64,000 nt of DNA from Streptoalloteichus hindustanus (lineage in GTDB: Bacteria > Actinomycetota > Actinomycetes > Mycobacteriales > Pseudonocardiaceae), in contig NZ_FQVN01000001.1 of assembly GCF_900129375.1 (NCBI RefSeq), positions 310,001-374,000 of the forward strand. The letters are read 5' to 3'. Of this stretch, positions 21,675 to 58,340 are shown piece after piece. How positions within the stretch are numbered: position 1 is the stretch's first letter; each line of letters begins with the position of its first letter. The notes beneath the pieces are model-generated. The model worked only from the letters and a program-made list of their open reading frames with translations. It was not told where the DNA came from and did no database searches. A program made the translations under genes and the position numbers.

Positions 21675-21745
21675 CTGAGTCGCGCGACCCAGGGCTTGGC
21701 CAGGGGGTCCCCCCTTTTTCAGCGTCTCGGGGAGGTCTGACAGTT
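21675..21745 (-). repeat. Structured intergenic repeat S, copy A
   Basis: Read on the minus strand it runs CTGTCAGACC, a GAGACGCTGAAAAAGGGGGG core, an inverted G-run/C-run, then CCAAGCCCTGGGTCGCG. The whole stretch aligns with copy D at 28982-29058. The core also aligns with copies B and C. Confidence 0.7.
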
Positions 21746-21908
21746 CGGGGTAGCTCGGACACCCTCGGGTGGGTGAAAGCGGCGAGGTGCGCGCACTGAG
21801 CGACGACCAGCGGGGCGCGGGGACGACCGGACCGAGCCACACCTTTGGGTGAATTCGCAGCCTGGCACCACCGCTGTGAACAGCGCCGACGGACCACTCC
21901 TCTGGAGA

Positions 21909-21953
21909 CAGCCCCCACCCGCCCTGGGGGGCGAGCCCTGCTCCAGCCTATCC
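21909..21953. repeat. 45-nt intergenic element R2, copy 1
   Basis: It begins CAGCCCCCACCCGCCC, passes a GGGGGGC run that can pair with its GCCCCC, and ends CCTATCC. It matches 43538-43582 at 43 of 45 bases. DnaA boxes follow about 36 bp later at both loci. Confidence 0.8.
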
Positions 21954-21989
21954 GCCCAGCACGGAGCGTCAAAGTTCTTCACACTCCGC

Positions 21990-22017
21990 TGTGGATAACT
22001 CGGGCACCTGTGGACAA
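21990..22017. other. Pair of DnaA boxes
   Basis: TGTGGATAA (21990-21998) and TGTGGACAA (22009-22017) are perfect complements of TTATCCACA and TTGTCCACA, 19 bp apart in the same orientation. Confidence 0.6.
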
Positions 22018-22201
22018 CTCGGGGTCAGGGCAGGATCACCGCAGGTCAGCGGTAGACCAATCCCGGAAAGCAGCGCGGGGCGGTCCACATCGGGAGCTCG
22101 AAGCAGGGCACAGCACCGGGGAAGGTGACACCCGACGGGACGCACCACCGGAGCGTCAGCCGCCCGAAAGCCGACCGCGCGAGACACCAGCGCGTGCCCA
22201 G

Positions 22202-23131
22202 CTAGTTGAAGCGCTCCCGTTCCGCCACGTCGGCCCAGAAGTCCCGGAGCCGCTCGTACAGCTCCGCGACCTCGTCGACATCCCCCGCCTCAAGGGCGTC
22301 CACCGCCGCGTGCACGTCGTGGGCCGACGTGTCGGCGAGCAGCTGGGCGTCGTCGAGGAGCTGGACGAGGCCGCCGTAGTCCAGCTCGACGGCCGAGTGC
22401 GGGTGGAAGTGCTCCAGCCAGCGCCCGGTGTCCCGCAGCACCTTGGCCGGGCCGTCCTCGCCGATCGCCTTCCGCACCACGCCGTAGGCCCGGCTGACCC
22501 GCCGGCGCGCGTCCGCCATCGCCATCCGCCAGCAGACCCGTCGGCGCGGGTCGTCCTGCGGGGCGAGCACGACCTGCCGGGAGTCCGGGTCGACCAGCGC
22601 GAACCAGGGCAGTGGCACGGTCCAGGTGGAGGAGACCACGTGGACGGCGCCCGAGGTCAGCTCGGACATCACGGCGGAGGCGCGGGCGCGGACCGCGTCG
22701 GCCGAGACCGGCAGCACGAACTCGCGCAGCGGGACCGGGGCGGTGGCCAGGAAGCCCACCAGGGCCGCCGCGGAGCGCGGCCGGACGTCGAGGGGGCACA
22801 CGAGCGGACCCGGCCCCACCTCGGCCGGGTCCTCGGCCTCGCCGCCGGTCTCGTCGACCTCGTCGCCGCCAGTGGGCACCTCCGCCGGGTCGAGCACGAG
22901 GACGTCCACCGGCGCGTTGGGCGCGGGGCTGCCGTCGGCGAGCTCGCCCGGCAGCAGTCTGGGCGGGACGGCGAGCTGTGCTCTCAGCCACAGCTCGCGT
23001 TCCCGGTCTCCGGCGTCGGCGGGGTCCAGGTTCCTGGTCCGCAACGCCTCTTCCACCCGTTGCCGCAACGGAGCGTCAATCACGGGCAACGGTTCGTACA
23101 CCCTCAGGTAGGCGACGAACGGACGCGGCAC
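22202..23131 (-). CDS. Conserved hypothetical actinobacterial protein
   Basis: A 309-residue cytoplasmic protein without a motif I can assign. It opens with VPRPFVAYLRVYEPLPVIDA, has an acidic linker (about 90-115) and ends in a helical region rich in Asp, Glu and Leu. GTG 23131 was chosen because the AYLRVYEP opening looks conserved, and the sequence upstream of it is low-complexity. Its place beside DUF3073 recalls rv0811c of mycobacteria, but the orientation differs, so the equivalence is unsure. It is monocistronic. Confidence 0.65.
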   Translation of the reverse strand: MPRPFVAYLRVYEPLPVIDAPLRQRVEEALRTRNLDPADAGDRERELWLRAQLAVPPRLLPGELADGSPAPNAPVDVLVLDPAEVPTGGDEVDETGGEAEDPAEVGPGPLVCPLDVRPRSAAALVGFLATAPVPLREFVLPVSADAVRARASAVMSELTSGAVHVVSSTWTVPLPWFALVDPDSRQVVLAPQDDPRRRVCWRMAMADARRRVSRAYGVVRKAIGEDGPAKVLRDTGRWLEHFHPHSAVELDYGGLVQLLDDAQLLADTSAHDVHAAVDALEAGDVDEVAELYERLRDFWADVAERERFN

Positions 23132-23603
23132 CCGGGCATACTCGCACGAGCCGAGGAACGGGGGCAGGCGCGGTGCCCTACGGGACGCTTCGATCAGGTC
23201 AGGGACCTTGGGCGGCAAGCCCGGGCCTCCCGCTCGCGCGGTCGGCGCGACGGACGACGGTGGGGAGCCGAAGCGTTCCCGACCAGGGGTCAACCGCCGC
23301 GCGAGGGCGTTCCGGCATCCTGTGGGGCCTCTCGCTCTGGGCCGTTCGCCCAGGCAGGAGGGGCCACTCGCACCCGGACCCGGCCGCCCGCCGGTGGGGC
23401 GGAAGCGACGCGTGTGGGCTCGCGGGAAAAGGGACAATCGTCACTCGGGGGCGTCCCCAACGGGACATCACGCCCCTCCGGGCGGTGCCGCGTCGCGTCA
23501 AACCCCGTCGGCACGGTACGGTAGTTACCAGGAGAAGTTGTCGAGACCGAACGGGGCCGCCGTTTCCCCCGGCCGCCCCGTCCCTGTGCGAGGGGGTCGA
23601 GCC
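23132..23603. other. Divergent intergenic region
   Basis: These 472 bp lie between a leftward gene and DUF3073. TACGGT and TAGTTA near 23515-23526 are possible -10 boxes for DUF3073. Nothing else is apparent; open frames here are GC-driven. Confidence 0.5.
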
Positions 23604-23786
23604 ATGGGGCGCGGCCGTGCGAAGGCCAAGCAGACGAAGGTGGCCCGAGAGCTCAAGTACAGCTCCCCCGCCACGGACTTCGAGGCCCTGCAGCGGGAGC
23701 TGTCGGGTGGCAAGTCCTTTGGCGACAAGCAGGACGACGACCGTGAGGACCCGTACGACGACGGGTACGACGACTGGCGCCGTTGA
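23604..23786 (+). CDS. DUF3073 protein
   Basis: A 60-residue, highly charged protein that is near-universal in actinobacteria (rv0810c type). The N-terminus MGRGRAKAKQTKVARELKY is basic and nearly invariant in the family. The C-terminus is Asp-rich (DDREDPYDDGYDDWRR), a polar charge split that suggests RNA or protein binding. The ATG at 23604 fits the family start. Function is unknown. It is monocistronic and ends before a strong terminator. Confidence 0.92.
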   Translation: MGRGRAKAKQTKVARELKYSSPATDFEALQRELSGGKSFGDKQDDDREDPYDDGYDDWRR

Positions 23787-24086
23787 CCCCGCTGCTCTCC
23801 TCGTCGACCTGACGGTCGGCACGGAGCGACAGTCGGTCTCGGCACGTCGTCCTGCCTTCCCGGGTTCGTTCCTCCCCCGGCCTCCGGCCGGGTTGGCACG
23901 CGCCCGGGTGGGGCAAGGATCGCGATAGCCACTCGGGCGGAAGCCACCTGCCCGGGACGACACGTCAGCGCGCTGGGTGCGGCTGGGCCTGGAACAACCG
24001 CGTCCAGCGCGCTGAACGGCACTTGAGAGTTCGGGACGGTGTTCGGAGCTCGGACGTCCGGGGTTGCCCGGGCGACGAGGACCCGG

Positions 24087-24128
24087 GAACGGCCCGGCAC
24101 CGCTGGCGACAGCGGCGCCGGGCCGTTC
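24087..24128. terminator. Bidirectional terminator between DUF3073 and iolD
   Basis: A nested inverted repeat: GAACGGCCCGGC (24087-24098) pairs with 24117-24128, and inside it CCGCTG (24100-24105) pairs with CAGCGG (24110-24115). It closes the DUF3073 transcript and, from the other side, the iol operon. The rest of 23787-24157 shows nothing. Confidence 0.8.
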
Positions 24129-26934: not shown

Positions 26935-27851
26935 GCGGGGACCTCCTCGGAACGGGCGGAGCGGAGCACCTGGGCCGCGGCCTCGACGGCGGCCGCCACG
27001 TCGCCGTGCGGCGGGTAGAGCAGCGCCCGGCCGACGACGAGCCCCCGCGCCGCGGGGTGGCGCAGCGCGGCGCCCCACGAGGCGAGGTCGGCGGCCGGGT
27101 CGGGCGAGGGAACGCCGCCGAGCAGGATCACCGGCAGCGTGGTGGCGCCCAGGACGGTGTCCGGCGCGCTCGGCGCCGGCAGCTTCAACCAGGTGTGGGC
27201 CGAGGTGCGCCCGAGGCCGCCGGCCACGGCGACGGCGCGGGCCAGCGACGTCGGGTCGCGCCGCAGGACCAGCCGGCCGGCCCCGTCCCGGGCGTGGGGC
27301 AGGGGTTCGACCATCGCCATGAGGCCGCGGTCGGCCAGCTCGGACACCGCGTGCGCGCAGGACTGGAGCGTGGGCACCGTGCCGGGGTCCTCGTCCACCA
27401 GCCGGAGCAGCATCTTGCCGCCGTCGAGCCGGCAGGCGGCGATGGCGTCGGCGTCGTAGCCGGTGAACCGGTCGTCGACCTCCCAGTCCGCGCCGGCCAG
27501 GCCACCCCGGTTCATCGAGCCGATCACGACCCGGTCGTCCAGCGCGCCGAGCAGGAGCAGCTCCTCCACGACGTCCGGGGCGCCGAGCACGCCGTCGACG
27601 GCGGGGTTGGCCAGCGCGACCAGCAGCCGCGCGAGCAGGGACCGGCGGTCGGCCATGGCCGTGGGGTCGTCGCCGACGCCGAGCGCGCCGCGGGCCGGGT
27701 GGTCGGCGGCGACCAGGAAGAGCGTGCCGCCGGCGGAGAGCAGCCGTTCTCGGCGACGGCGGGCGGCGTAGGCCCTGGCGACCGCGCCGGGGTTGGTGGC
27801 CCTGGTCTCCAGCAGTTCGGCCCAGTCGGCGTCGCTGATGGCGGGCGTCAC
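26931..27851 (-). CDS. Cgl0159-type (beta/alpha)8 aldolase of inositol catabolism
   Basis: A 306-residue TIM-barrel protein related to DeoC/LacD-type aldolases and typical of actinobacterial iol clusters (Cgl0159 family). It may cleave 2-deoxy-5-keto-gluconate 6-phosphate, the IolJ step. Visible segments are FLVAADHPARGALGVG, VIGSMNRGGLAG, the probable Schiff-base strand LDGGKMLLRL and TSAHTWLKLPA. GTG 27851 overlaps the iolC stop. The aldolase assignment rests on family and position; no other iolJ candidate is in the cluster. Confidence 0.85.
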   Translation of the reverse strand: MTPAISDADWAELLETRATNPGAVARAYAARRRRERLLSAGGTLFLVAADHPARGALGVGDDPTAMADRRSLLARLLVALANPAVDGVLGAPDVVEELLLLGALDDRVVIGSMNRGGLAGADWEVDDRFTGYDADAIAACRLDGGKMLLRLVDEDPGTVPTLQSCAHAVSELADRGLMAMVEPLPHARDGAGRLVLRRDPTSLARAVAVAGGLGRTSAHTWLKLPAPSAPDTVLGATTLPVILLGGVPSPDPAADLASWGAALRHPAARGLVVGRALLYPPHGDVAAAVEAAAQVLRSARSEEVPA

Positions 27852-28780
27852 GAGAGGAACTCCTCGATCTCGTCGAGCGTGGGCATGGCGTCGGCGCAGG
27901 CCAGCCGGCCCGCCACGAGGGCGCCGGCGGCGTTGGCGTACCGGGCGACGCGGACGGGGCCCCAGCCGGAGAGCAGGCCGTGGGCCAACGCCCCGCCGAA
28001 GGCGTCCCCGGCACCCAGTCCGCAGACCACGTCCACCGGTCTGGGCGGAACCGTCCACACGCCGTCCCGGGTGGCGACCAGGACGCCGTCGCCGCCCTTC
28101 TTCACCACCGCCAGCTCGACGCCCCGGTCCAGCAGACGGCGCGCCGCCTCCTCCGGGTCCGCGACGCCGACCGCGACCTCCACCTCGGTCCGGTTGCCGA
28201 CGGCCACCGTGACGTGGTCGAGCATCCAGCCGATCTCCCGGCGGGCGGTGGCCACGTCGGGCCAGAACACCGGCCGGTAGTCCAGGTCGAGCACGGTGTG
28301 CGCGCGGCGCCCGCGGTGGCGCAGGATCTCGCGCTGCGTCGCCCGCGCCGGCTCGGCGGACACCCCCGTTCCGGTGACCCACAGCAGGGGGACGTCCCGC
28401 ACCACGTCCCAGGGCACGTCCTCGGGCCGGACCGTGAGGTCGGGCGCGGTGGGCAGCCGGTAGAACACCAGCGGCGGGTCGGCCGGCGGGTCCAGCGCGC
28501 AGAACACCACCGGGGTGAGCAGGCCGGGCTCGGTGCCCACGTGGCTCGGGTCGACCCCGAAGCCGCGCAGCGCCTCCCGCACGTACTCGCCGAAGCCGTC
28601 CGGGCCGACCTTGGTCAACACCGCGCCCCGCCGACCGAGCCGCGCGGCCGCCACCGCCACATTGGTGGCGGTGCCGCCGAGCGACTTGGCGAAGGTGCGC
28701 ACCCCGGCCAGCGGGACCCCGCTCTGCTCGGGGTAGAGGTCCACACCGACCCTGCCGACGGTCAGCACCTCCAGGTTCAC
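27848..28780 (-). CDS. iolC: 5-dehydro-2-deoxygluconokinase IolC
   Basis: IolC phosphorylates 2-deoxy-5-keto-gluconate. The 310-residue PfkB-family sugar kinase has the N-terminal glycine motif SLGGTATNVAVAAARLG and the C-terminal signature VVCGLGAGDAFGGALAHG with the catalytic Asp. GTG 28780 was chosen because AGGAAGG stands 10 nt upstream; GTG 28789 is too close to that site. It is the first gene of the iolC-aldolase-iolB-iolD coupled block. Confidence 0.94.
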   Translation of the reverse strand: MNLEVLTVGRVGVDLYPEQSGVPLAGVRTFAKSLGGTATNVAVAAARLGRRGAVLTKVGPDGFGEYVREALRGFGVDPSHVGTEPGLLTPVVFCALDPPADPPLVFYRLPTAPDLTVRPEDVPWDVVRDVPLLWVTGTGVSAEPARATQREILRHRGRRAHTVLDLDYRPVFWPDVATARREIGWMLDHVTVAVGNRTEVEVAVGVADPEEAARRLLDRGVELAVVKKGGDGVLVATRDGVWTVPPRPVDVVCGLGAGDAFGGALAHGLLSGWGPVRVARYANAAGALVAGRLACADAMPTLDEIEEFLS

Positions 28781-29284
28781 GACATCCACGCCTTCCTGGC
28801 TCGTCCGTTCCGTTCCCGTGTTCTTCGTGCTCCCCGCGTTCCCCTGTTCTCCGTGTTCTCCGTGGACCTGGCACTCCGGGCTCGGCCCGTCCGCGCCCCG
28901 GGGCGAACCTCGGTGCGACCACTCGCCGACCTGGCGGTAACGCTCACCGTTCTCACCCGTCCGAGGCCCTCGCGGAGCGCCGAAACTGTCGGTCCTCTGC
29001 GGGACTCTTAGAAAAGGGGGTCCCCCTAGAACCAGGCCCTGGGGTCGCGTGACCAGAACTCTGGGGTGACACGACGGAGGGTGGTCGCGGTGACTCCGCG
29101 CGCCGCCGGCCCGACGCCACTTCCCGGCTCGGCACCTCCCGGTCGTCATCTCCGCGGTTGTCAGTTGTGTCCACGTCAGATGCGCGCACCGCTGGCGCGC
29201 CTCATCCGCCGCTCTCCGGAGGGTGGGCCGGGCGGTGCCGCACCGCGGAGCGGTTGGACGCCATCGCCCCTCCCTGTCCCCTGC
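28781..29284. other. Long intergenic region inside the iol cluster
   Basis: These 504 bp split the iol genes into two blocks on one strand. On the minus strand 28795-28870 is a purine-rich degenerate repeat of GGAGAACAC-like units. Copy D of repeat S follows at 28982-29058. No open frame here is convincing and no LacI-type palindrome was found. Confidence 0.6.
28982..29058 (+). repeat. Structured intergenic repeat S, copy D
   Basis: On the plus strand it begins ACTGTCGGTCC, contains the perfect palindrome AGGGGGTCCCCCT and continues CCAGGCCCTGGGGTCGCG, itself a small inverted repeat. It aligns over about 75 nt with copy A, and in its 5' half with copies B and C. Confidence 0.7.
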
Positions 29285-30181
29285 TCAGCCCAACCCGGCG
29301 AGGAGCTCGCGCAGACACGCGAGGCTGCGCGCGGTGTCGCGGCGCGGCCGGGCGGCCTCCTCGGCCCCGTCGCCGGACAGCGCCGTGTCCTGCTCCAGCA
29401 CGTACCAACCCTGGTAGTCGGCGGCCGTCAGGGACGCGACGATCGCGGCGACGTCGACGTCGCCGTCCCCCAGCGGGGTGTAGATCCCCTGGCCGACCGC
29501 CTCGGTGTAGGTCAGCTCCCCGGCCCGGACCCGCTCGGCGACGGCGGCCCGCACGTCCTTGAGGTGGACGTGGCCGACGCGGTGCGCCCAGCGGGAGGCG
29601 ACCGCGGCCGGGTCGCCCCCACCGATCAGCAGGTGGCCGGTGTCCAGGCAGATCGACAGGTCCGAGTCGGAGAGGAAGCGCTCGGTCTCCGCGCCGGTCT
29701 CCACGTGGGTGCCGACGTGCGGGTGCAGCGCGGTCGTCAGACCGTGCCGCGCCGCCGCCTCCCGCACCGCCGCCGCCGTGGCGACCAGGGTCCGCCACTG
29801 CCCGTCGGTCAGCCGGGGCCGCTCGTCGTAACCGTCCAGCCCGGTCGACGCGGCCAGCACCAGCACCTCGGCGCCCCCGGCCGCCAGCACCCGGGCGACG
29901 CGGTCGGCCTCGGCCAGGCTTTCCTCGACCCGGTCGGCCTCGTGCAGCACGACGGGGAGGAACCCGCCGACCAGGCCCAACCCGTGCCGGGACAACACGG
30001 CGCGCAGCCGCTCCGGGTCGCTGGGCAGGTAGTCGGGCGGGCCCAGCTCGGTCGCGGTGAGCCCCAGCCCGGCCATCTCGGCGAGCACGGTCTCCGGGTC
30101 GAGGACGTGCCCCCACCCCGGCACCTCGCACACGCCCCAGGAGATCGGCGCCCCGGCCACTCTCGGCGTCGTCGCCATCAC
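29285..30181 (-). CDS. IolE/IolI-type sugar isomerase or dehydratase
   Basis: A 298-residue xylose-isomerase-like TIM barrel, by context either inosose dehydratase (IolE) or inosose isomerase (IolI). It has GAPISWGVCEVPGWGHVLD at the N-terminus, ALHPHVGTHVET and CLDTGHLLIGGGDP, which carry metal-binding His, Asp and Glu residues, and HVHLKDVRA. The start, GTG 30181 or ATG 30178, overlaps the iolG stop. Because no other iolE candidate is in the cluster, the dehydratase is favoured. Confidence 0.82.
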   Translation of the reverse strand: MMATTPRVAGAPISWGVCEVPGWGHVLDPETVLAEMAGLGLTATELGPPDYLPSDPERLRAVLSRHGLGLVGGFLPVVLHEADRVEESLAEADRVARVLAAGGAEVLVLAASTGLDGYDERPRLTDGQWRTLVATAAAVREAAARHGLTTALHPHVGTHVETGAETERFLSDSDLSICLDTGHLLIGGGDPAAVASRWAHRVGHVHLKDVRAAVAERVRAGELTYTEAVGQGIYTPLGDGDVDVAAIVASLTAADYQGWYVLEQDTALSGDGAEEAARPRRDTARSLACLRELLAGLG

Positions 30182-32809: not shown

Positions 32810-32813
32810 CAGA

Positions 32814-41504: not shown

Positions 41505-41544
41505 CGGTGACCGCCTAGCGGTGGCCGCCCGGGGCCGATGTGCC

Positions 41545-41550
41545 TAGCGT
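41545..41550 (+). promoter_or_regulatory. Leaderless -10 element of the GH15 gene
   Basis: TAGCGT stands 7 nt before ATG 41558, so the GH15 message is probably leaderless. The gene lies only 53 bp after the GH2 gene but has its own promoter. Confidence 0.6.
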
Positions 41551-41557
41551 GGGAGTG

Positions 41558-43420
41558 ATGGCACGTCAGCACGAGCGTCCGCTTCCGTCCGGCAGCCCCA
41601 TCGAGGACTACGCGTTGCTGTCCGACCTGCGCACCGCCGCGCTGGTCGGCAGGGACGGCTCGGTGGACTGGTTGTGCCTGCCCCGCTTCGACGCCCCGTC
41701 CTGCTTCGCCCGTCTGCTCGGCGGGGAGGGCCACTGGCAGATCTGCCCGACCGGCCCCGTCTCGGAGGTCCGACGGCGCTACCGCGACACGTCGATGGTG
41801 CTGGAGACGGAGTTCCACACCCAGGACGGCGCGGTCCGGCTGATCGACTCCATGCCGCCGCACCGCAGGGAGCACGAGGACGAGCCCAGCGTGGTGCGCG
41901 TGCTGGAGGGGGTGTCGGGCGAGGTTGAGGTCAAGCTGCGCTGGGTGGTGCGCTTCGCCTACGGCGACGCCATTCCGTGGGTGCGCCGGTGCGACAGCGC
42001 GGAGGGCCAGACCATCCTGGCGGTGGCCGGCCCGCACACCGTCCTGCTCCGGGGCGACCGACTGCCCTACCGGGCGCGGCACGAGCGCGCCCACGAGGCG
42101 GTCTTCACCGTCGCCGCCGGCCAGCGGCTGTCCTGGGTGATGCAGTGGAGCCCGGCGCACAAGCCGATGCCCCCGGCGCTCGACGCGGACCGGTCGACGG
42201 AGGAGACCGAGGCGTTCTGGCGCCAGTGGTCCGGGCGGATCAGCTACGACGGCCCGCACGCGGAGGTGGTGCGCCGCTCGCTGACCACCCTCAAGGCGCT
42301 CGTCTACGACCCCAGCGGCGGGATCGTCGCCGCCCCCACCACCTCGCTGCCGGAGGCCCCCGGCGGGGAGCGGAACTGGGACTACCGCTACTGCTGGCTG
42401 CGCGACGCGACCTTCACCCTGCTGGCGCTGGACAACTTCGGCTGTTCGCAGGAGGCCGAGCGGTGGCGGGACTGGCTGGTGCGCGCGACGGCGGGGGACC
42501 CGGCGAACGCCCAGATCATGTACGGCGTCGACGGCGAGCGGCACCTCGTCGAGTGGGAGGTGGACTGGCTGCCCGGCTACGGCGGCGCGCGCCCGGTGCG
42601 GGTCGGCAACGCGGCCTTCCGGCAGCTCCAGCTCGACGTCTACGGCGAGGTGATGGACGCGCTGCACCTGGCCAGGGAACGCGGGCTCGAGGAGAGCCCG
42701 GAGTCGTGGGCCGTGCAGCGCGGCATGATGCGACACCTGGAACACGTGTGGCAGCAGCCCGACCGGGGTCTGTGGGAGGTGCGCGGTCCGGAGCGGCACT
42801 TCACGCACTCCCGCGTCATGGTCTGGGTCGCGTTCGACCGCGCGGTGCGCGCGGTCGAGCAGCACGGCCTCCCCGGTCCGGTGGAGCGGTGGCGCGAGTT
42901 GCGCGAGGTCGTGCACGCCGAGGTGCTGCGACAGGGGTGGAACGGCGAGCTCGGCGCGTTCACCCAGTACTACGGGGGCACCGAGCTGGACGCGGCCACC
43001 CTGCTCATCCCCGCCGTGGGCTTCCTGCCGGGGGACGACGAGCGCGTGCTCGGCACGCTCGACGCGATCGACCGGACGCTGCGCCACGGCGACCTGATCG
43101 ACCGCTACTCCACCCGCAGTGGACAGTCGCATGTGGACGGTCTGGTGGGGCGCGAGGCGTCGTTCCTCGCCTGTTCCTTCTGGTACGTCGACGCGCTCGC
43201 GCTCGGCGGGCGCCGGGACGAGGCGGAGGCGATGTTCGGCCGGCTGGTGGCGCTGGCCAACGACGTGGGCCTGTTCGCCGAGGAGTACGACGCCGACCGG
43301 GGCCGGTTCTGCGGGAACTTCCCCCAGGCGTTCAGCCACCTGGCGCTGGTCAACAGCGCGGCGGTGCTGTTCGGCGGCCGACAGCGTCACGAGCGCGACC
43401 GCGCCAACGGGGCGTCGTGA
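41558..43420 (+). CDS. GH15 family glycoside hydrolase (glucoamylase/trehalase type)
   Basis: A 620-residue GH15 protein of the kind that includes mycobacterial trehalases as well as glucoamylases. The N-terminal beta-sandwich (1-240) starts IEDYALLSDLRTAALVGRDG. The (alpha/alpha)6 barrel has NWDYRYCWLRDATFTLLAL, a candidate acid Glu in EWEVDWLPGYGG and a second in LVGREASFLACSFWYVDAL. No signal peptide is seen, so it acts inside the cell, where trehalose or alpha-glucan are likely substrates. ATG 41558 was chosen for its leaderless promoter. Confidence 0.88.
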   Translation: MARQHERPLPSGSPIEDYALLSDLRTAALVGRDGSVDWLCLPRFDAPSCFARLLGGEGHWQICPTGPVSEVRRRYRDTSMVLETEFHTQDGAVRLIDSMPPHRREHEDEPSVVRVLEGVSGEVEVKLRWVVRFAYGDAIPWVRRCDSAEGQTILAVAGPHTVLLRGDRLPYRARHERAHEAVFTVAAGQRLSWVMQWSPAHKPMPPALDADRSTEETEAFWRQWSGRISYDGPHAEVVRRSLTTLKALVYDPSGGIVAAPTTSLPEAPGGERNWDYRYCWLRDATFTLLALDNFGCSQEAERWRDWLVRATAGDPANAQIMYGVDGERHLVEWEVDWLPGYGGARPVRVGNAAFRQLQLDVYGEVMDALHLARERGLEESPESWAVQRGMMRHLEHVWQQPDRGLWEVRGPERHFTHSRVMVWVAFDRAVRAVEQHGLPGPVERWRELREVVHAEVLRQGWNGELGAFTQYYGGTELDAATLLIPAVGFLPGDDERVLGTLDAIDRTLRHGDLIDRYSTRSGQSHVDGLVGREASFLACSFWYVDALALGGRRDEAEAMFGRLVALANDVGLFAEEYDADRGRFCGNFPQAFSHLALVNSAAVLFGGRQRHERDRANGAS

Positions 43421-43537: not shown

Positions 43538-43582
43538 CAGCCCCCACCCGCCCTGGGGGGCGAGCCCCGCTCCAACCTATCC
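43538..43582. repeat. 45-nt intergenic element R2, copy 2
   Basis: It matches 21909-21953 at 43 of 45 bases in the same orientation. Here, as there, it follows the 3' end of a rightward gene and stands about 37 bp before DnaA boxes. It could also act as a terminator stem (GCCCCC with GGGGGC). Confidence 0.8.
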
Positions 43583-43700: not shown

Positions 43701-43732
43701 CTTCCCCGGGCCACGGCCGACATTCGGTATCT

Positions 43733-43799
43733 TGTGCCCACTACAGGGCTTGCTAGGGGTGGAACCCCCCATTTCCAACGTCTCACGAGAGACCGACAA
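43733..43799 (-). repeat. Structured intergenic repeat S, copy B
   Basis: On the minus strand it reads TGTCGGTCTCTCGTGAGACG, with GTCTC and GAGAC able to pair. Then come TTGGAAATGGGGGG, a C-run partner and a GCCCTGTAGTGGG tail. The central GAGACGTTGGAAATGGGGGG is identical in copy C. The rest of 43421-43952 holds only element R2 and the DnaA boxes; no gene is seen. Confidence 0.7.
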
Positions 43800-43952
43800 G
43801 AACGGTGACGTGGAGCCCCCTGGACGGGCGAAGAATCCACGAAGACACCCGCGCGGGCGACCGCAGAAGCTGCCGACGCGGAATCGCGCGAGACCACCAG
43901 GAGCGGCGCAGGCGGCCGCTGACGTCCCGGAAGATCGACTGACCGAACGTGG

Positions 43953-46184
43953 TCAGGAGAGCAGGCGGTTGATCTGGTCCGGCGGCCCGGGGCGGGCGAA
44001 GTACCACCCCTGCCCGGAGTCGCAGCCGATGTCGTCCAGCCGGCGGGCCTGGGCCTCGGTCTCCACCCCCTCGGCGGTCACCCCGAGCCCCAGCGCGTGC
44101 GCCAGCGAGACCAGCGTGCCCACGATGCGCGCGTCGACCACGTGCGAGCCGTCCGCCGCCGACGCCCGCAGGCCCTCGACGAACGAGCCGGCGATCTTCA
44201 GCTCGTGCACCGGGAGGTGCCGCAGGTAGGCCAGGTTCGAGTAGCCGGTGCCGAAGTCGTCGATGGCGATCCGCACCCCCATGGCCGACAGCGCGCGCAG
44301 GGCGTCCAGCGGCTCGTCGGCGGTGCCCATGACGGCGCTCTCCGTCAGCTCCAGCTGGAGCCGGGTGGCCTCCACCCCGGTGTCGGCGAGGACCTTGGCG
44401 ACGTCGGCGACCAGACCGGGGTCGCGGGACTGCCGCACCGCGAGGTTCACGCTGATGAACGGCGCGCGCGAGCCGAACCGGTCCTGCCACAGGCGGGCCT
44501 GCCGGCACGCCTCGCGCAGCACCCACCGCCCCAGCGGCACGATCTGGCCGGTCTCCTCGGCCAGCCCGATGAACCGGTCCGGCGCGAGCAGGCCGAACTC
44601 CGGGTGCCGCCAGCGGACCAGCGCCTCGGCGCCCACCAGCTGGCCGTCGGACAGCCGCACCAGCGGCTGGTAGTCCAGGTAGAACTCGCCGCGCTCGATG
44701 GCCGCCGGCATGGTGGCCGACAACGTGAACCGGGCGACCTCGCGGGCGTTGCGCTCCGGGTCGAACAACGCCCACTTGGCCTTGCCGTCGGACTTGGCCC
44801 AGTAGAGCGTGATGTCCGCGTCCCGCATGACGTCGGCCGGAGTCGTGCCCTGGACGGGGCGTTCGACCAGGCCGATGCTGGCCGAGACGGCCAGCTCGTG
44901 CTCCCCGACCCGGATCGGGGCCTCCAGCGCGGCCAGCACGTGGTCGGCGATGGTGACCACGTCCTGGGTGCTGCCGGAGCGCTCGACCAGGATGATGAAC
45001 TCGTCGCCGCCGATCCGGGCGACCAGCCGGCCCGGCGCGGAGACGCAGGCGTCCAGCCGCTGGCCGACCGCCACCAGGAGCTGGTCGCCGACGTCGTGGC
45101 CCAGGCTGTCGTTGATGACCTTGAACCCGTCGAGGTCGAGGTAGCACAGGCCGACCCGGCCGTCCCGGCCGCCGGTCTCGAACGCCCGGGAGAGCCGGTC
45201 GAGGAACAGCGCCCGGTTGGGCAGGCCGGTGAGCGGGTCGTGCAGCGCCTGGTACCGCAGCCGCTCCTGGAGCAGGTGCCGGTCGGTGACGTCCTCGATC
45301 ATCGCCACCTGGTACGTGGGGTTGCCCCGGTCGTCCCGGATCAGCGAGGTGGTCAGGTGCGTCCAGATGACCTCGCCGTCGCTGCGGAAGAACCGCTTCT
45401 CCACCCGGAAGTGGTCCCGCTGCCCCTGGACCAGCTCGTCGTAGAGCCGCCACACGCTGGCCGCGTCCTCGGGGTGCATGAAGTCGCGGACGTTGCGCTG
45501 CCGCAGCTCCTCCAGGCTGTAGCCCATCATGTCGAGCAGCGAGGCGTTGGCGTCGAGGATGCGGCCGGCCACGTCGCCGACGCCGATCCCGGTCGCCGCC
45601 TCGGCGAACACCGCGCGGAACCGGGCCTCGCTGGCCCGCAGCGCCTGCTCGGTCTGGTCCCTGGCGACGAACACGGCCTGGCTGATCGCCTCCTGCTCGT
45701 CGAGGGTGCGCTGCCGCAACGCCTCGGCGTAGCCGCCGGCCAGCGCGCCCTGCACGGCGGCCACCCGCTCGACGGCGCGCTCCCGGCCGGGGCAGGCGTC
45801 CCCGGTGAGGCCGAGCCGGGCCGGCAGGTCGGTGGCGAGCAGCGCCACCGTGCGGGTGAGGGTCTCGGTCCCGGTGAAGTGCGCGGCCACCATCGCCGCG
45901 CCGACCTCCCGCGCGGGCGCGGGGTCGAACGGCTCGGCGAGCAGCGCGGTGACGAGCTGCCTGGTCAGCCCGGCCAGGTGCTGCTCGACCTCGGAACGGC
46001 TCATCGAGACGTAGCTCGTCCCGGCGACGGCCTCGGCCCAGGCCAGGGCGAAGCCGAGCACGACGTCCGCGTGGCCGGTGACGTCGTCGTCGGCGGCACC
46101 GCCGCCGACCGCCCCCCGCCCGGCGAGCGCGGCCAGGCCGAGGCGGTGCCTCGGTTCCGGGATTCCCTCGGCCGGGCGGCTCAC
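43953..46184 (-). CDS. PAS-GGDEF-EAL cyclic-di-GMP signalling protein
   Basis: A 743-residue cytoplasmic protein. Residues 1-190 form an unassigned helical domain, and a helical linker with DQTEQALRASEARF leads to a PAS domain (about 200-315). GGDEF (about 320-485) has an intact RIGGDEF active site. EAL (about 490-740) keeps AEALVRW, ELTES, DDFGTGYSN, EGVE and GQGWYF, but the usual LKID motif is LKIA, so phosphodiesterase activity may be reduced. No membrane helix is seen. GTG 46184 overlaps the stop of the upstream methyltransferase gene, making it the last gene of a four-gene operon. Confidence 0.92.
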   Translation of the reverse strand: MSRPAEGIPEPRHRLGLAALAGRGAVGGGAADDDVTGHADVVLGFALAWAEAVAGTSYVSMSRSEVEQHLAGLTRQLVTALLAEPFDPAPAREVGAAMVAAHFTGTETLTRTVALLATDLPARLGLTGDACPGRERAVERVAAVQGALAGGYAEALRQRTLDEQEAISQAVFVARDQTEQALRASEARFRAVFAEAATGIGVGDVAGRILDANASLLDMMGYSLEELRQRNVRDFMHPEDAASVWRLYDELVQGQRDHFRVEKRFFRSDGEVIWTHLTTSLIRDDRGNPTYQVAMIEDVTDRHLLQERLRYQALHDPLTGLPNRALFLDRLSRAFETGGRDGRVGLCYLDLDGFKVINDSLGHDVGDQLLVAVGQRLDACVSAPGRLVARIGGDEFIILVERSGSTQDVVTIADHVLAALEAPIRVGEHELAVSASIGLVERPVQGTTPADVMRDADITLYWAKSDGKAKWALFDPERNAREVARFTLSATMPAAIERGEFYLDYQPLVRLSDGQLVGAEALVRWRHPEFGLLAPDRFIGLAEETGQIVPLGRWVLREACRQARLWQDRFGSRAPFISVNLAVRQSRDPGLVADVAKVLADTGVEATRLQLELTESAVMGTADEPLDALRALSAMGVRIAIDDFGTGYSNLAYLRHLPVHELKIAGSFVEGLRASAADGSHVVDARIVGTLVSLAHALGLGVTAEGVETEAQARRLDDIGCDSGQGWYFARPGPPDQINRLLS

Positions 46185-46984
46185 GGCGTGCGCCCCACCC
46201 CGGCGAGCACGCCGAACCGGCTGGGGTCCGGGTCGGGCGCGTCGGCCGGCTCCGGCCGCCACTCCGGCAGGTAGACCACCCCGGGCGGGACCAGCTCGTA
46301 GCCCGCGAGGAGGGCGGCGACCGCCGCCGGGGAGCGCAGGGCGAGCGGCGTGGCGCTGCGGGCGTAGAGCTGCTTCATGCTGGCACGACGCTCGTCGGCC
46401 GCGTCGGTCCCGTGCGAGAGCAGCAGGTAGCTGCCGGACGGGCCGGCGTTCCGGTAGCGGGCGATGATGCCGGCGGGGTCGCCGGAGTCCGGCACGAAGT
46501 GCAGCAACGCCATCATCAGCACGGCCACCGGCTGGTCCGGGTCGATGAGCCGGCGCGTCTCCGGGGCGGCGAGCACCGCGTCGGGGTCGCAGGCGTCGGC
46601 CTGGACGACCGCCGCGTGCTCGTTGCCGGCGAGGATGGCCCGGCTGTGGGCGACGGCGACGGGGTCGTTGTCCACGTAGACCACCCGGGCGGCGGGGTCG
46701 ACCGCCTGCGCCACCTCGTGCACGTTCCCCACGGTCGGGATGCCCGACCCCAGGTCCAGGAACTGCCGGATGCCGTCGTCCAGGCAGTAGCGCACCGCCC
46801 GCCGCAGGAACGCCCGGTTCGCCCGGGTGATCTCCGGCAGCTCGGGCACGATGCGCAGGGCCTGCTCCGCCAACGCGCGGTCCACCGCGAAGTTGTGCGA
46901 GCCCCCCAGCCAGTAGTCGTAGACCCGCGCCGCGCTCGGCCGCTCCACGTCCACCTCGACCGGGGCCCACGTCGGTCTGTCCAC
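46181..46984 (-). CDS. DUF574 SAM-dependent methyltransferase, paralogue 1
   Basis: A 267-residue DUF574 (Methyltransf_19) protein, a Rossmann methyltransferase family expanded in actinomycetes with unknown substrates. The family opening is PSAARVYDYWLGGSHNFAVD. The SAM loop is FLDLGSGIPTVGNVHEVAQ, followed by the acidic strand end VVYVDNDPVAVAHSR and LLHFVPDSGDP. GTG 46984 was chosen because GGGAGG stands 6 nt upstream and the sequence aligns with the start of paralogue 3. Its stop overlaps the GGDEF-EAL start. Confidence 0.9.
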   Translation of the reverse strand: MDRPTWAPVEVDVERPSAARVYDYWLGGSHNFAVDRALAEQALRIVPELPEITRANRAFLRRAVRYCLDDGIRQFLDLGSGIPTVGNVHEVAQAVDPAARVVYVDNDPVAVAHSRAILAGNEHAAVVQADACDPDAVLAAPETRRLIDPDQPVAVLMMALLHFVPDSGDPAGIIARYRNAGPSGSYLLLSHGTDAADERRASMKQLYARSATPLALRSPAAVAALLAGYELVPPGVVYLPEWRPEPADAPDPDPSRFGVLAGVGRTP

Positions 46985-47014
46985 GTCTTCCCTCCCGGTG
47001 CGCACACCACAGGG

Positions 47015-47845
47015 TCACACTCTGCGTCCTACTCCTGCGTACCCGATGTCCCGGCGCGGGTGCTCGTCCGTCGTCCGTGGCGTGTCGGGCCGCCACTCCG
47101 CCAGGCGGGTCACCCCGGGGTCGACGAGCTCGAAACCGGCGAGCAGGGCCGTGACCTCGGCACGCGACCGCAGCGTGAAGCGCTGCGCGCTGCTCGCGTA
47201 GAGAGCGGCCACCCGGGACACCTGCTCGCCGACGGCCTCGTTGTCCGAATCGCCGGTGAGGTGCGAGAGCACGAGGTGGCTCCCCGGCGCCATGGCCTCC
47301 CGGTAGCGGCCGATGACGTGGACCGGGTCGTCGGAGTCTGGCACGAAGTGCAACGACGCCACCATGAGTACCGCCACCGGCCGGTCCAGGTCGAGCAGAC
47401 CCGTCACTTCGGGCGACGGGAGCACCCGTTCGGGGTCGCGGAGGTCGGCGTGCAGGATCTCGGCCCCGGGCACGTCGGCGAGCATCACCCGACTGTGGGA
47501 GACGGCGACCGGGTCGCTGTCCACGTAGACCACCCGCGCGGCGGGGTCGACCGCCTGCGCCACCTCGTGCACGTTCCCCACGGTCGGGATGCCCGACCCC
47601 AGGTCCAGGAACTGCCGGATCCCGCTGGCCAGGCAGTACCGCACCGCCCGCCGCAGGAACGCCCTGGTCGCGCGCATCGCGGCCGGCAGCTCGGGCACGA
47701 TGCGGACCGCGCGCTCCGCCAACGCGCGGTCCACCGCGAAGTTGTGCGACCCGCCCAACCAGTAGTCGTGGACCCTGGCCGCGCTCGGGCGGTCCAGGTC
47801 CACGTCCTCGGGGAGGCCCCGCGACCCCGTGGCCACGGAGGTCAT
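47015..47845 (-). CDS. DUF574 SAM-dependent methyltransferase, paralogue 2
   Basis: The middle of three tandem paralogues, 276 residues. It has PSAARVHDYWLGGSHNFAVD, the same FLDLGSGIPTVGNVHEVAQ loop, VVYVDSDPVAVSHSR and SLHFVPDSDDP. ATG 47845 overlaps the stop of paralogue 3 (ATGA). A 123-bp block (47542-47664) is identical to 48357-48479 in paralogue 3 at every base, including third codon positions, while the flanks have diverged. Paralogue 1 follows after 30 bp. Confidence 0.9.
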   Translation of the reverse strand: MTSVATGSRGLPEDVDLDRPSAARVHDYWLGGSHNFAVDRALAERAVRIVPELPAAMRATRAFLRRAVRYCLASGIRQFLDLGSGIPTVGNVHEVAQAVDPAARVVYVDSDPVAVSHSRVMLADVPGAEILHADLRDPERVLPSPEVTGLLDLDRPVAVLMVASLHFVPDSDDPVHVIGRYREAMAPGSHLVLSHLTGDSDNEAVGEQVSRVAALYASSAQRFTLRSRAEVTALLAGFELVDPGVTRLAEWRPDTPRTTDEHPRRDIGYAGVGRRV

Positions 47846-48648
47846 GGTTTCCGCCCCACCCCGGCGTAGCCGGCGAACCGCTCCGGGTGGTCGTCGGCCG
47901 CGTCCCCGACCTCCGGGCGCCACCGGGGGAGCGGGACGAGGCCCGGCTCGACCAGCTCGAACCCGTCGAGCAGGGCGGCGACCTCCGCGTGCGAGCGCAT
48001 GCGCATCGGGGTGCGGGTGCGGGCGTAGAGCCGCTGGTGCGGCTCGGCCCGCTCGGGCCGCCCCTCGTGGGTGGCGTGCGAGAGCACCAGGTGGCTGCCC
48101 GGCGCCATCTCCTCGGCGTAGCGGGCGACGACGGCCGCGGGGTCGTCGGCGTCCTGGACGAAGTGCAGGACCGCCACCATGAGCAGGGCCAGCGGCTCGT
48201 CCGGGTCGAGCAGCTCGCGGACCGCGGGCGCGGCCAGGACCGCGTCCGGGTCCCGCAGGTCGCCGTGGACCACGGCGGTGCGCCCCTCCCGGGGGAGGAT
48301 CGCCCGGCTGTGGACGACCGCCACCGGGTCGAGGTCGACGTAGACGACGCGGCAGCCGGGGTCGACCGCCTGCGCCACCTCGTGCACGTTCCCCACGGTC
48401 GGGATGCCCGACCCCAGGTCCAGGAACTGCCGGATCCCGCTGGCCAGGCAGTACCGCACCGCCCGCCGCAGGAACGCCCGGTTGGTCCGCATGATGCGGG
48501 GCAGGTCCGGCCAGAGCTGGACGGCCTCCGCGGCGAGCTCGCGGTCCACCGCGAAGTTGTGCGACCCACCCAGGTAGTAGTCGTAGACCCTGGCCGCGCT
48601 GGGACGGGCCAGGTCGATGTCACCGGGCGCCCAGTCGGGACGGTCCAC
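47842..48648 (-). CDS. DUF574 SAM-dependent methyltransferase, paralogue 3
   Basis: The first gene of the operon, 268 residues, with PSAARVYDYYLGGSHNFAVD, the FLDLGSGIPTVGNVHEVAQ SAM loop, VVYVDLDPVAVVHSR and VLHFVQDADDP. GTG 48648 follows GAGGAG by 6 nt. The shared block with paralogue 2 suggests recent gene conversion. Substrate and role are unknown. The coupled layout with a GGDEF-EAL protein suggests that methylation and c-di-GMP signalling act together, which is an inference from gene order only. Confidence 0.9.
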   Translation of the reverse strand: MDRPDWAPGDIDLARPSAARVYDYYLGGSHNFAVDRELAAEAVQLWPDLPRIMRTNRAFLRRAVRYCLASGIRQFLDLGSGIPTVGNVHEVAQAVDPGCRVVYVDLDPVAVVHSRAILPREGRTAVVHGDLRDPDAVLAAPAVRELLDPDEPLALLMVAVLHFVQDADDPAAVVARYAEEMAPGSHLVLSHATHEGRPERAEPHQRLYARTRTPMRMRSHAEVAALLDGFELVEPGLVPLPRWRPEVGDAADDHPERFAGYAGVGRKP

Positions 48649-48931
48649 TGGTCGCTCCTCACTCCGCTGTCGCCGGCCCCCAGGGCCCTCCCGAGCATAG
48701 GACTGACGTTTGATTCACTCCAATGAGGAGCTCCGTCACATTGCGTAACCACTCGTCCGGCTGAGCCGGTATCGCCCGTCCGTCCCCGGCCGATCGTCGG
48801 GTGATCCCCCTCCCGATCGTCCAGCACCGCGTCCCGGCCGCCGCGCGCCCCCTCTTTATCGCACGACCGTGTTAAATTAGTTCCCTGGTCGACGCGTCCG
48901 AGGGGGGCGGCGTGCCGAGAAGGGGGCCCGG
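48649..48931. other. Divergent promoter region of the methyltransferase operon
   Basis: These 283 bp separate the methyltransferase operon from the small membrane gene. The TTAAATTAGTT stretch near 48873-48883 is the most AT-rich sequence of the area. I cannot assign a firm -10/-35 pair to either side. Confidence 0.45.
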
Positions 48932-55616: not shown

Positions 55617-56252
55617 ATGCGGATCGTCCACTTCGGACACGCCTGCGTGCTGCTGGAGATCGGCGACACGCGCCTGCTGATCGATCCCGGCACGCTGTCC
55701 AGCGGTTTCGAGGCGCTGCGCGGGCTGGACGCGATCCTGTTCACGCACGCGCACGCGGACCACCTCGACCTGGGCCGTCTGCCCGCGCTGGTGGACGCCA
55801 GTCCCGACGCGGTGATCGTCGCCGATCCCGGATCGGCCGAACAGATCAGCGACCATGGGCTGAACTGCCGTACGGCACGGCCGGGTGACGTCCTCTCATC
55901 GGGCGATGTCCGGATCGACGTGGTTGGCGGAGAGCACGCGGTCATCCATCCGGACCTGCCCGGAATCCCTAACGTGGGTTACCTCGTTGGTCACGGTGCG
56001 TTCCTGCACCCGGGCGACTCGTTCGTCCGCCCGGAGCGACCGGTCGACGTGCTCGCGCTGCCCACGGGCGCGCCGTGGCTCAAGGCCGCCGAGGCGGTCG
56101 ACTACCTCCGGGCCGTGCGGCCCCGGGTGGCGGTGCCCGTCCACGAGGCCGTGCTGGCCTCGCCGCAGCTCCACTACACGCTGTTCGAGCGGCTCGCGCC
56201 GGAGGGCACCGAGGTGCGGGTGCTCCGCCACGGCGAGCCGGCCGAGGTGTGA
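55617..56252 (+). CDS. Metallo-beta-lactamase-fold hydrolase (UlaG-like)
   Basis: A 211-residue MBL-fold protein. The metal-binding motif is FTHAHADHLDLGR, and further ligands are probably the His in VGGEHAVIHPD and the Asp in LHPGDSFV. The N-terminus RIVHFGHACVLLEIGDTRLL is typical of the UlaG/L-ascorbate-6-phosphate lactonase branch, but the substrate is unknown. The ATG at 55617 follows GGGGAGG. It is convergent with the DUF2334 gene. Confidence 0.85.
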   Translation: MRIVHFGHACVLLEIGDTRLLIDPGTLSSGFEALRGLDAILFTHAHADHLDLGRLPALVDASPDAVIVADPGSAEQISDHGLNCRTARPGDVLSSGDVRIDVVGGEHAVIHPDLPGIPNVGYLVGHGAFLHPGDSFVRPERPVDVLALPTGAPWLKAAEAVDYLRAVRPRVAVPVHEAVLASPQLHYTLFERLAPEGTEVRVLRHGEPAEV

Positions 56253-56325
56253 GGGCGAGGGGACGCCGCGTCCGGCGGCAGCCGGCGACGACCGGCAGTC
56301 GGCGGTCGGCAGTCGGCGGCGACGC

Positions 56326-57105
56326 TCAGCGCCGTCGACCCGCCCCGGAAGGCGCCTCGGGAAGCGGGCGAGCGGGGCTGACGAACTCCGCGTACGTCGT
56401 GGGCTCGGCGCCGTGGTGCAGGGCGATGTCCACCGCGTCCAGCACGGCCTGACGCGGACCCGGCCGCGCCAGGTCGGCGGCGTCGACCCCGAGCCGCACC
56501 AACCCGCCCCGCCGGGCGGCGCGCGCCACCCCCAGCACCAGGGCCCAACACCACCAGGGCTCGGCCACGTCGCCACGGCCGACGCCGTGCACCCGCGCGC
56601 GGTGCACGGCACCCGAGCGCAGGTCGTGCACGGCGGTCGCCTCCGCGCAGACCGCGAACCCGTGCCGGCGCAACGCCGCGCGCGTGCCGGGCGAGGCGAG
56701 CCAACGGGGCGGGGCGAAGCAGTCCGTGCTCAGCTCCAGGCGCTCCAACGCGGCCCGGGCCGCGAGCAGGCGCAGGCCGGCCTCGTGCGTGGGCAGGGCC
56801 GCGAACTCGCCCCGACGCCAGAGCCGCGCCCCCGGAACCCACCCGCCGTCCGAGCGGTCGGGATGCGCGAACCCGTGCAGCACCAGGGCGTCGCCCACGG
56901 ACTGGCGCAGGCGCACCCAGCGCAGCGCCGGCGACCCGGGATCGGTCCGGTCGCCGTGCGCGGGCCGGGGCGTCAGCAGCAACGAGAGCGGCACCGCGCG
57001 CCGGTCGAGGTCGGCGGCCAGCTCCGCGCAGCGCCGCACCGTCCGGCCGGCGATGCCGGACAGCGAGACCACGAGCCTGGTGGGCACATACCCATGACGC
57101 CGCAC
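56326..57105 (-). CDS. DUF2334 polysaccharide-deacetylase-like protein
   Basis: A 259-residue protein of the DUF2334 family, which shares the NodB/polysaccharide deacetylase barrel. It has VVSLSGIAGRT near the start, LVLHGFAHPDRS with the metal His and an internal FAPPRWLASPGTRAAL. GTG 57105 is used here; GTG 57087 is an equal alternative. It lies 105 bp after purC on the same strand, so it may be co-transcribed with it. Substrate and localisation are unknown. Confidence 0.8.
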   Translation of the reverse strand: MRRHGYVPTRLVVSLSGIAGRTVRRCAELAADLDRRAVPLSLLLTPRPAHGDRTDPGSPALRWVRLRQSVGDALVLHGFAHPDRSDGGWVPGARLWRRGEFAALPTHEAGLRLLAARAALERLELSTDCFAPPRWLASPGTRAALRRHGFAVCAEATAVHDLRSGAVHRARVHGVGRGDVAEPWWCWALVLGVARAARRGGLVRLGVDAADLARPGPRQAVLDAVDIALHHGAEPTTYAEFVSPARPLPEAPSGAGRRR

Positions 57106-57210
57106 GGCGGTGACGGTGGCCTGGCCACCGGGTGACCAGGCGATACCGATCCGGCGAACTCCGGTCGGAACCGGCGGCCGCCCCAGCCCCCGGCTCCTCG
57201 GCCCCGGCCG

Positions 57211-58104
57211 TCAGCCCCTCGGCGCCGGCCAGTCCGCCAACGAGCGACCGGAGATCATCTCGTACGCCTCGACGTAACGCGCCCGGGTGGCGGCCACGAC
57301 CTCGTCCGGCAGCGCCGGCGGCGGCGCGTCGGACGCCCGGTCCCAGCCCGAGGCGGGCGAGGTCAGCCAGTCCCGCACGAACTGCTTGTCGAACGAGGGC
57401 TGCACCCGGCCCGGCTGGTAGCCCTCGGCCGGCCAGAACCGCGACGAGTCCGGCGTGAGCACCTCGTCGGCGAGCACCAGACCGCCCTCGGGCGCGACGC
57501 CGAACTCGAACTTGGTGTCGGCCAGCAGCACCCCGCGCCCCGCGGCGTGCTCCGCCGCCCGCGCGTAGATCCCCAGGGTGAGCGCCCGCAGCCGCTCCGC
57601 CCGCTCCCGGCCGACGGACGCGACCACCGCGTCGAAGCTGACGTTCTCGTCGTGCGCGCCGATCTCCGCCTTCGTCGCCGGGGTGAAGATCGGCTCCGGC
57701 AGGCGGTCGGACTCCGCCAGCCCCGGCGGCAGCTCGATGCCGCACACCGCGCCGGTCCGCCGGTAGTCGGCCAGACCGGAGCCGGTGAGGTAGCCGCGGG
57801 CCACGCACTCCACCGGCAGCATCTCCAGCCGGCGCACGAGCAGCGCCCGGCCACGCACCTCGTCCGGGATGCGCTCGTCGTCCCACGCCACCAGGTGGTT
57901 GGGCACCACGTCGGCCAGCAACTCGAACCAGAACACGCTCATCGCCGTGAGCACCCGGCCCTTGTCCGGGATGGGCGTGGGCAGCACGTGGTCGTAGGCC
58001 GAGATCCGGTCCGAGGCGACCAACAACAGGTGCTGGTCGTCCACGGCGTGAAGCTGGCGGACCTTGCCGGCGGCGATCTGCGGGTAGTCGGCGAGCGAAG
58101 CCAC
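57211..58104 (-). CDS. purC: Phosphoribosylaminoimidazole-succinocarboxamide synthase PurC
   Basis: PurC joins CAIR and aspartate to SAICAR with ATP. The 297-residue protein has [39 protein letters not shown], the SAICAR synthetase motif LADTKFEFG and [16 protein letters not shown] 58104 stands 6 nt after a TAGGGT -10 box (58116-58111), so the gene is probably leaderless. It leads a transcript that may include the DUF2334 gene. Confidence 0.97.
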
Positions 58105-58110
58105 GCGGCA

Positions 58111-58116
58111 ACCCTA
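58111..58116 (-). promoter_or_regulatory. Leaderless -10 element of purC
   Basis: TAGGGT on the minus strand lies 6 nt before GTG 58104, with no Shine-Dalgarno between. Confidence 0.65.
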
Positions 58117-58273
58117 AGCCGCCCCGCCCCACCAGCGTGAACGGCCCCTTCTCGAAACACTGCCCCAGTTGTCCGCGCCATCTCCCGGCCCGGGCCCCGA
58201 GCGCCCGCCGACGAGCCCTCGACGGCACTTCCCCCGAACATCACCCGGGCGGGCGAAGCGACCCCGCGCTTTT

Positions 58274-58340
58274 CTGTCAGACCCCCGTGAGACGTTGGAA
58301 ATGGGGGGATCCCCTCTACATAACTCTGTAGTGGGGTGAC
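58274..58340 (+). repeat. Structured intergenic repeat S, copy C
   Basis: On the plus strand it reads CTGTCAGACCCCCGTGAGAC, then TTGGAAATGGGGGG, a GGGGATCCCC palindrome and CTCTGTAGTGGGG. The core is identical to copy B, and the first ten bases (CTGTCAGACC) equal those of copy A. It lies in the 306-bp gap between the PPE-like gene and purC, where nothing else is seen. Confidence 0.7.

Follow-up and report, generated by a model that had tools for sequence, protein, structure and literature searches.

The window analysed here, a stretch of 64,000 nucleotides of the Streptoalloteichus hindustanus genome (positions 310001-374000 of contig NZ_FQVN01000001.1, here C19), carries four copies of a short repeat, S, and S is a true family of about 60 short non-coding units dispersed between the genes of this 7.28-Mb genome (G000). 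Judged from the sequence, the conserved core of S appears to be mainly promoter-like rather than an RNA fold, and we give an even chance to the reading that S units are dispersed genes for short hairpin RNAs with PafBC-like promoters. Each unit would have a promoter of its own, made of a -26 TGTCRG element and an extended -10 (TG-N-nAnnnT), spaced as in PafBC (RecA-NDp) promoters. Transcription would start at or beside a run of G, so that the RNA would open with a GGGGG..CCCC(C) hairpin and continue for another 30-45 nt predicted to be under selection. PafBC-sigmaA RNA polymerase, or a related WYL-domain activator, would turn S on when single-stranded DNA accumulates, and the product would be a hairpin small RNA of ~50 nt. 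The most likely role of such RNAs would be to act in trans during DNA damage; as a second role, the act of transcription itself may matter at convergent gene ends.

The original prediction had placed four copies of S at 21675-21745 (-), 28982-29058 (+), 43733-43799 (-) and 58274-58340 (+), and all four were found there. A degenerate pattern allowing up to 3 mismatches recovered exactly these four in the window and none in 100 dinucleotide shuffles. With the first T of TGTC taken as position 0, the copies and their parts are as follows:

21667..21747, minus strand: S copy A, unit -5..+75 (limits from the ortholog profile); TGTCAGAC at 21742-21735, -10-like GACGCT at 21726-21721, G-run/C-run hairpin at 21714-21703.
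28982..29062, plus strand: S copy B (pattern and model match); TGTCGGTC at 28987-28994, GACTCT at 29003-29008, hairpin GGGGG-T-CCCCC at 29016-29026.
43723..43803, minus strand: S copy C (pattern and model match); TGTCGGTC at 43798-43791, GACGTT at 43782-43777, hairpin GGGGGGTTCCACCCC at 43770-43756.
58270..58350, plus strand: S copy D (pattern and model match); TGTCAGAC at 58275-58282, GACGTT at 58291-58296, hairpin GGGGGGATCCCC at 58303-58314.

A grouping of the 3' halves into A with D and B with C had also been proposed and proved wrong, since A and B have CCARGCCCTGGG(G)TCGCG and C and D have CTGTAGTGGG. Copies A (by flank match), C and D are syntenic with copies of Streptoalloteichus tenebrarius (loci L149, L162 and L159, respectively). 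The statement that all four lie between genes needs one qualification: a minus-strand open reading frame (ORF) called at 27848-29149 has an upstream extension that overlaps copy B and that we read as spurious because the PfkB domain starts only at residue 48 of the ORF begun at 28912.

In the whole genome the pattern occurred at 19 places, which adds 15 to the four of the window, and its reversed form at none. A covariance model built from these 19 places (R1) gave 72 genome matches at E<=10, of which 60 had E<0.03. The scan that had been suggested thus returned dozens of copies; a return of the four alone, which had been named as counting against the idea, did not occur. The compensatory changes expected with them were absent within Streptoalloteichus. 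In S. tenebrarius DSM 40477 (G001), of the same genus, R1 found 59 matches at E<=1e-3, and 40 stretches fetched from this genome yielded 50 usable copies, giving with 61 from G000 a two-species set of 111. We then used a sequence model (R2) made from 71 of 85 prepared copies (Glycomyces, a Rhodococcus-titled copy and some divergent ones were omitted). At E<=1e-4, R2 matched 65/220 Pseudonocardiaceae genomes, the window's own included, with a patchy spread over 16/46 genera; at most 24 matches were counted in any one genome. The order-level scan matched 19/298 genomes, 6 of them outside Pseudonocardiaceae, and the phylum sample 2/198, namely the window's own and one at E 9.7e-5. Among 80 listed of at least 98 named-genome stretches, Lentzea, Saccharothrix, Amycolatopsis, Kibdelosporangium, Actinokineospora, Actinocrispum, Umezawaea, Actinosynnema, Pseudonocardia, Streptoalloteichus and Glycomyces carry S-pattern matches, and one Planctomycetota match among them is not S-like beyond the pattern. 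The S copy in a record titled Rhodococcus rhodnii NRRL B-16535 (L198) is letter-identical to one from a genome of the window's family (L295), so that the name is doubtful and the record may be misnamed. Rfam 15 gave 0 matches at gathering threshold in the window and 0 at E<=1 in 9 copy-holding loci, and no description of the family was found among the titles and abstract openings that searches of open-access PMC text returned.

The evidence for a promoter came from a logo of the 61 best matches, anchored at TGTC. It showed WWWCTGTCAGACC at -4..8, T13 G14, A17, T21, a purine-rich stretch at 23-26, G29-G32 and C36-C39, together with a weaker TTTTCACCC at -37..-29. The TGTCRG element is present in 53/61 copies of G000 and 47/50 of S. 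tenebrarius, and TGTCRG-N11-A-N3-T in 51/61 and 47/50, that is, in 98/111 copies of the two species. The extended -10 TG (13-14) occurs together with A17 and T21 in 43/61 and 38/50 (81/111). In the parts of the literature consulted, the PafBC motif reads TGTCGG-10N-TA-3N-T, TGTCAG and TGTCAC being variants of it (PMC8151990), PafB is described as contacting the -26 promoter motif (PMC11804915), the RecA-NDp promoter is named and likened to the PafBC motif (PMC8223512), and the PafBC regulon is one of protein genes. S shares with these promoters the TGTCRG element and the interval between it and the A and T of the -10. It differs from them in that Streptoalloteichus copies have no T at -12 and mostly carry ACC or TCC in place of the canonical TG, in occurring in tens of copies with a G/C hairpin immediately after, and in being seldom placed to serve the following gene in this genome (6/45 classed copies). 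By eye, the full TANNNT is present in many copies from other genera, for example as TAACGT in Amycolatopsis and Kibdelosporangium. S thus has what reads as the PafBC promoter layout, and in Streptoalloteichus we do not class it as a member.

The canonical form, TGTCRGTG-N8-TANNNT, occurs at 11 sites in the genome against 0 for the reversed pattern. By eye, the ORFs that follow four of these appear to encode UvrA, a UvrC-like nuclease, a DinF-like transporter and RecX; the last lies 1.2 kb on, and this site is therefore probably that of recA-recX. None of the ORFs at the remaining seven is an obvious repair gene; one of them lies on the opposite strand. A canonical PafBC-type site at L132 precedes by 58 nt an ORF whose product looks, by eye, like a Cas3-like HD protein. 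DUF222/HNH (13E12-type) genes also carry RecA-NDp promoters, the promoter type seen in S; a link between them and S was ruled out, as the window's genome has no DUF222 (0 PF02720 matches). A general upstream DnaA box was likewise rejected: TGTGGACAA stands at -30/-31 in 5/6 Actinokineospora copies, and 111/111 Streptoalloteichus copies have no exact box within 80 nt upstream. The DnaA-box-like TGTGGACAA or TGTGGATAA at -30/-31 from TGTC was seen in Actinokineospora (L200, L204, L212, L233 and L234) and also at L181 and L189, about where Streptoalloteichus copies carry the weak CACCC element.

Because the genome has 14 WYL-domain matches, other regulators with related sites are possible. S could then be a protein-binding site only, its ~60 copies acting as decoys that retain PafBC-RNA polymerase, or else a different WYL regulator, with no RNA intended. 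The strong -26 element and the number of WYL domains speak for decoys; we nevertheless find them improbable, because PafBC without RNA polymerase is reported not to bind promoter DNA (PMC11804915), and because the stretch downstream of the start is conserved as well. The protein-binding site put forward in the original prediction is contained within the promoter reading. Its untranslated RNA fits best of the three options it had offered, on grounds other than those first given, namely the promoter layout and the hairpin at the expected start.

This hairpin is located at the expected transcription start in 111/111 copies. In all 111, C4+ follows a G-run within 16 nt; among background G5+ runs, taken from 400 kb of this genome, 40/449 are so followed. 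The early observation that pairing is kept was right as far as the G-run and C-run are concerned, but does not amount to covariation, because those letters hardly vary. A better sign of pairing is that the C-run is still kept in the 14/111 copies whose spacer is 3-10 nt in place of 0-2. For the other genera, the alignment comprised 62 distinct of 69 sequences (2/28 further loci failed the anchor), and an 11-bp hairpin of the AGGGGTCCCC..GGGGACCCCT type had 6 double-change pairs against 3.1 in shuffles (0/500 reach this), in a test that leans in favour of the helix because the helix was chosen from the same sequences. It scores above its own slid versions, and its share of paired cells is unremarkable (71.7% vs 70.7%; 61/500). 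An absence of covariation beyond GC bias, the other outcome named beforehand as adverse, is what was found within Streptoalloteichus, and the other genera escape it only modestly, through the 11-bp hairpin and not through RNAalifold. A second hairpin, P2 (e.g. ACTACAGGCCTGTAGT), was convincing by eye and was dropped at 53.3% paired vs 52.9% for shuffled letters. We also discarded a leaderless peptide begun at the G-run: by eye, start codon and frame are not kept, and orthologs differ by 1-nt indels.

Comparison of orthologous copies indicated how far the unit extends. Flank alignment on one or both sides gave 32 syntenic locus pairs between G000 and S. tenebrarius, with two low-identity matches set aside, and 31 of the 32 yielded 35 copy pairs; the remaining locus, L067/L155, is syntenic with no copy pair, the S. 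tenebrarius copy being near a contig end. Identity between orthologs was 0.62 at -150..-75, 0.81 at -5..28, 0.91 at 28..42, 0.78 at 42..58, 0.74 at 58..76 and 0.61 at 76..110, compared with 0.58, 0.69, 0.83, 0.63, 0.60 and 0.60 for non-orthologous copies in the same bins. Single positions reached 0.97-1.0 at 1-3, 5, 14, 17, 21 and 29-32, and fell to 0.46-0.60 at 9-12, 18 and 22. The stretch after the hairpin exceeded the 95th percentile of non-orthologous pairs in 21/35 cases and the next downstream stretch in 4/35; this part varies among paralogs yet is kept between orthologs. Because of this profile and this test, we place the conserved unit at about 80 nt, from about -5 to about +75 relative to TGTC, the part after the hairpin included.

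S favours convergent gene ends in this genome. Using a crude GC3-based gene caller, 45/61 copies of G000 could be classed (14 were in gaps >1 kb and 2 overlapped a called ORF): 26 were convergent and 0 divergent, and of those in tandem gaps 13 were antisense and 6 sense. Background intergenic length in twenty chosen 20-kb stretches was 60% tandem, 20% convergent and 21% divergent, which gives binomial p values of 2e-8 for convergent and 3e-5 for divergent placement when copies are treated as independent, though eight neighbouring pairs are <=340 nt apart. For the other genera, 45/50 tabulated loci were classed as 17 convergent, 18 sense tandem, 8 antisense tandem and 2 divergent, and 97 comparison gaps included 13 convergent and 22 divergent. 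The 5'-side gene was on the same strand in 35/45, and the 3' side was less clear than in G000, the gene calls being coarser. The genes flanking the four window copies are:

20370..21566, plus strand: MFS transporter, 3' end toward A.
22202..23437, minus strand: ORF without Pfam match, 3' end toward A.
27848..28912, minus strand: PfkB-family kinase, reading away from B (start codon assumed).
29285..30181, minus strand: AP_endonuc_2 TIM barrel, 3' end toward B.
41540..43420, plus strand: glycosyl hydrolase family 15, 3' end toward C.
43953..48827, minus strand: PAS-GGDEF-EAL protein, 3' end toward C.
57211..58104, minus strand: SAICAR synthetase, reading away from D.
58411..60054, minus strand: long ORF without Pfam match, 3' end toward D, missed by the GC3 gene caller.

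The PAS-GGDEF-EAL gene contains three tandem repeats of ~830 nt, 75-77% identical (window 46165-48648). A second dispersed element, T (AGCCCCCACCCGNCCNGGGGGGCGAGCCCNGCTCCA), lies at 21909-21953 (-) and 43538-43582 (-) of the window and is far more uniform than S, with 84 places genome-wide at <=3 mismatches (61 exact) vs 0 for the control. Its other strand reads TAGGCT or TAGGTT (-10-like) and then a GC hairpin, with the DnaA-box-like TTGTCCACAG or TTATCCACAG upstream in 11/11 copies viewed. Locus L162 of S. tenebrarius, which is syntenic, contains a counterpart of the T copy at 43538.

The hairpin and the position at gene ends raise the alternative that S serves neighbouring genes as a transcription terminator or 3'-end element, mostly two-sided between convergent genes. 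The same-strand 5'-side gene in most classed loci of other genera is in line with it, as are the GC-rich hairpin in every two-species copy and the reverse strand of copy A, where the hairpin is followed by TTTTT. A terminator does not account for why TGTCRG, TG, A and T are conserved at set spacings, and the would-be U-tract stretch is a mixture in the logo; we regard it as unlikely.

Placement at convergent ends would also follow if S were a miniature mobile element similar to miniature inverted-repeat transposable elements (MITEs) or repetitive extragenic palindromes (REPs), spread by copying and persisting mainly between convergent genes, where it is harmless, with the promoter-like part as cargo or mobilisation signal. 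Like MITE/REP elements, S is short and non-coding, has a palindromic part, exists in tens of copies, forms tandem pairs, is enriched at convergent ends and is occasionally copied. In G000, same-strand tandem pairs 138-194 nt apart occur at six places, and S-holding blocks of 172-325 nt are common to loci with unlike flanks. The tandem pair C18:638865/639005 (L065) shares 94% identity with C14:147748/147886 (L070) across 325 nt, and its ~320-nt two-copy block (L065 2441-2759; L360), which begins at GCTTCGAGTTGC in both G000 loci, breaks a gene that by eye encodes a GNAT-like acetyltransferase. The S. tenebrarius counterpart site is uninterrupted and by eye coding; the insertion in G000 is inferred from this one relative, and the host gene in G000 looks further decayed, with a larger deletion downstream. 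The patchy spread over genera also suits a mobile element. In G039, a genome of another family of the order, S copies form inverted, convergent pairs separated by ~110 nt, resembling a small element whose ends are inverted (L107, L112, L117, L120, L124 and L127; clear by eye in 5/6, imperfect in L127).

Other features of S differ from those of MITE/REP elements. In Streptoalloteichus, inspection by eye showed no terminal inverted repeats, either where the inserted block begins and ends or among 19 aligned copies, and the one insertion with an uninterrupted relative showed no target duplication, only a 4-nt common GCTT at one end. S has promoter-type spacing, and conservation tracks the promoter positions, which the end of a MITE need not. 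Many copies are syntenic between species: the 35 copy pairs at 31 loci are conserved above surrounding DNA. Plasmid and phage records had no match to copy D, and spread by plasmid or phage was dropped. The mobile mini-element first suggested is thus borne out by one tandem pair within a gene uninterrupted in S. tenebrarius and opposed by the syntenic pairs. As an account of the whole family we consider it rather unlikely, though a good deal less so than a terminator.

Several findings weigh against S being a set of hairpin-RNA genes. About 60 copies is odd for a small RNA gene, and the -12 T (the T of TA) is missing in 111/111 Streptoalloteichus copies. One S pair was evidently copied into a gene in G000, as a mobile element would be. 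RNAalifold gave no consensus pair for 110 Streptoalloteichus copies (the weakest of the 111, on contig C11, was omitted) and 3 pairs, none covarying, for the 62 distinct other-genus copies. In Streptoalloteichus, P2 pairs at chance, and letters flanking the hairpin are paired in 53/111 copies vs 45 expected, a value reached by 70/2000 shuffles. The 61-copy logo has no common U-tract, no dedicated terminator search having been made. The upstream surroundings are not fully saturated, the 95th percentile being exceeded in 12/35 pairs at -75..-8 and 9/35 at -150..-75. The ortholog set was found with R1, so conservation at the R1 consensus positions is partly ascertained; the test of the tail after the hairpin is unaffected. 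Finally, the syntenic pairs L101/L145 and L060/L146 differ in their tails at the same place.

Hairpin-RNA genes would have counterparts in the multi-copy small RNA families of bacteria, which like S have their own promoter-like region, a 5' hairpin and related copies at many loci; S differs in its far higher copy number and in having no Rfam match. In its full form the proposal, which we consider rather unlikely, is of an undescribed class of DNA-damage-induced hairpin RNAs, in which ~60 promoters per genome would be fired together by single-stranded-DNA-activated PafBC or a sister WYL activator. The resulting 5'-hairpin RNAs, at gene ends in part of Pseudonocardiaceae and a few other families, might be a genome-wide RNA or transcription-interference arm of the damage response. 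Reading S as hairpin-RNA genes predicts ~60 simultaneous transcription starts after mitomycin C. If correct, S would be a dispersed repeat with a promoter, instead of the end of a transposon, as its conserved core; and if PafBC drives it, the most numerous PafBC targets in these genera would be non-coding and sited where two genes converge.

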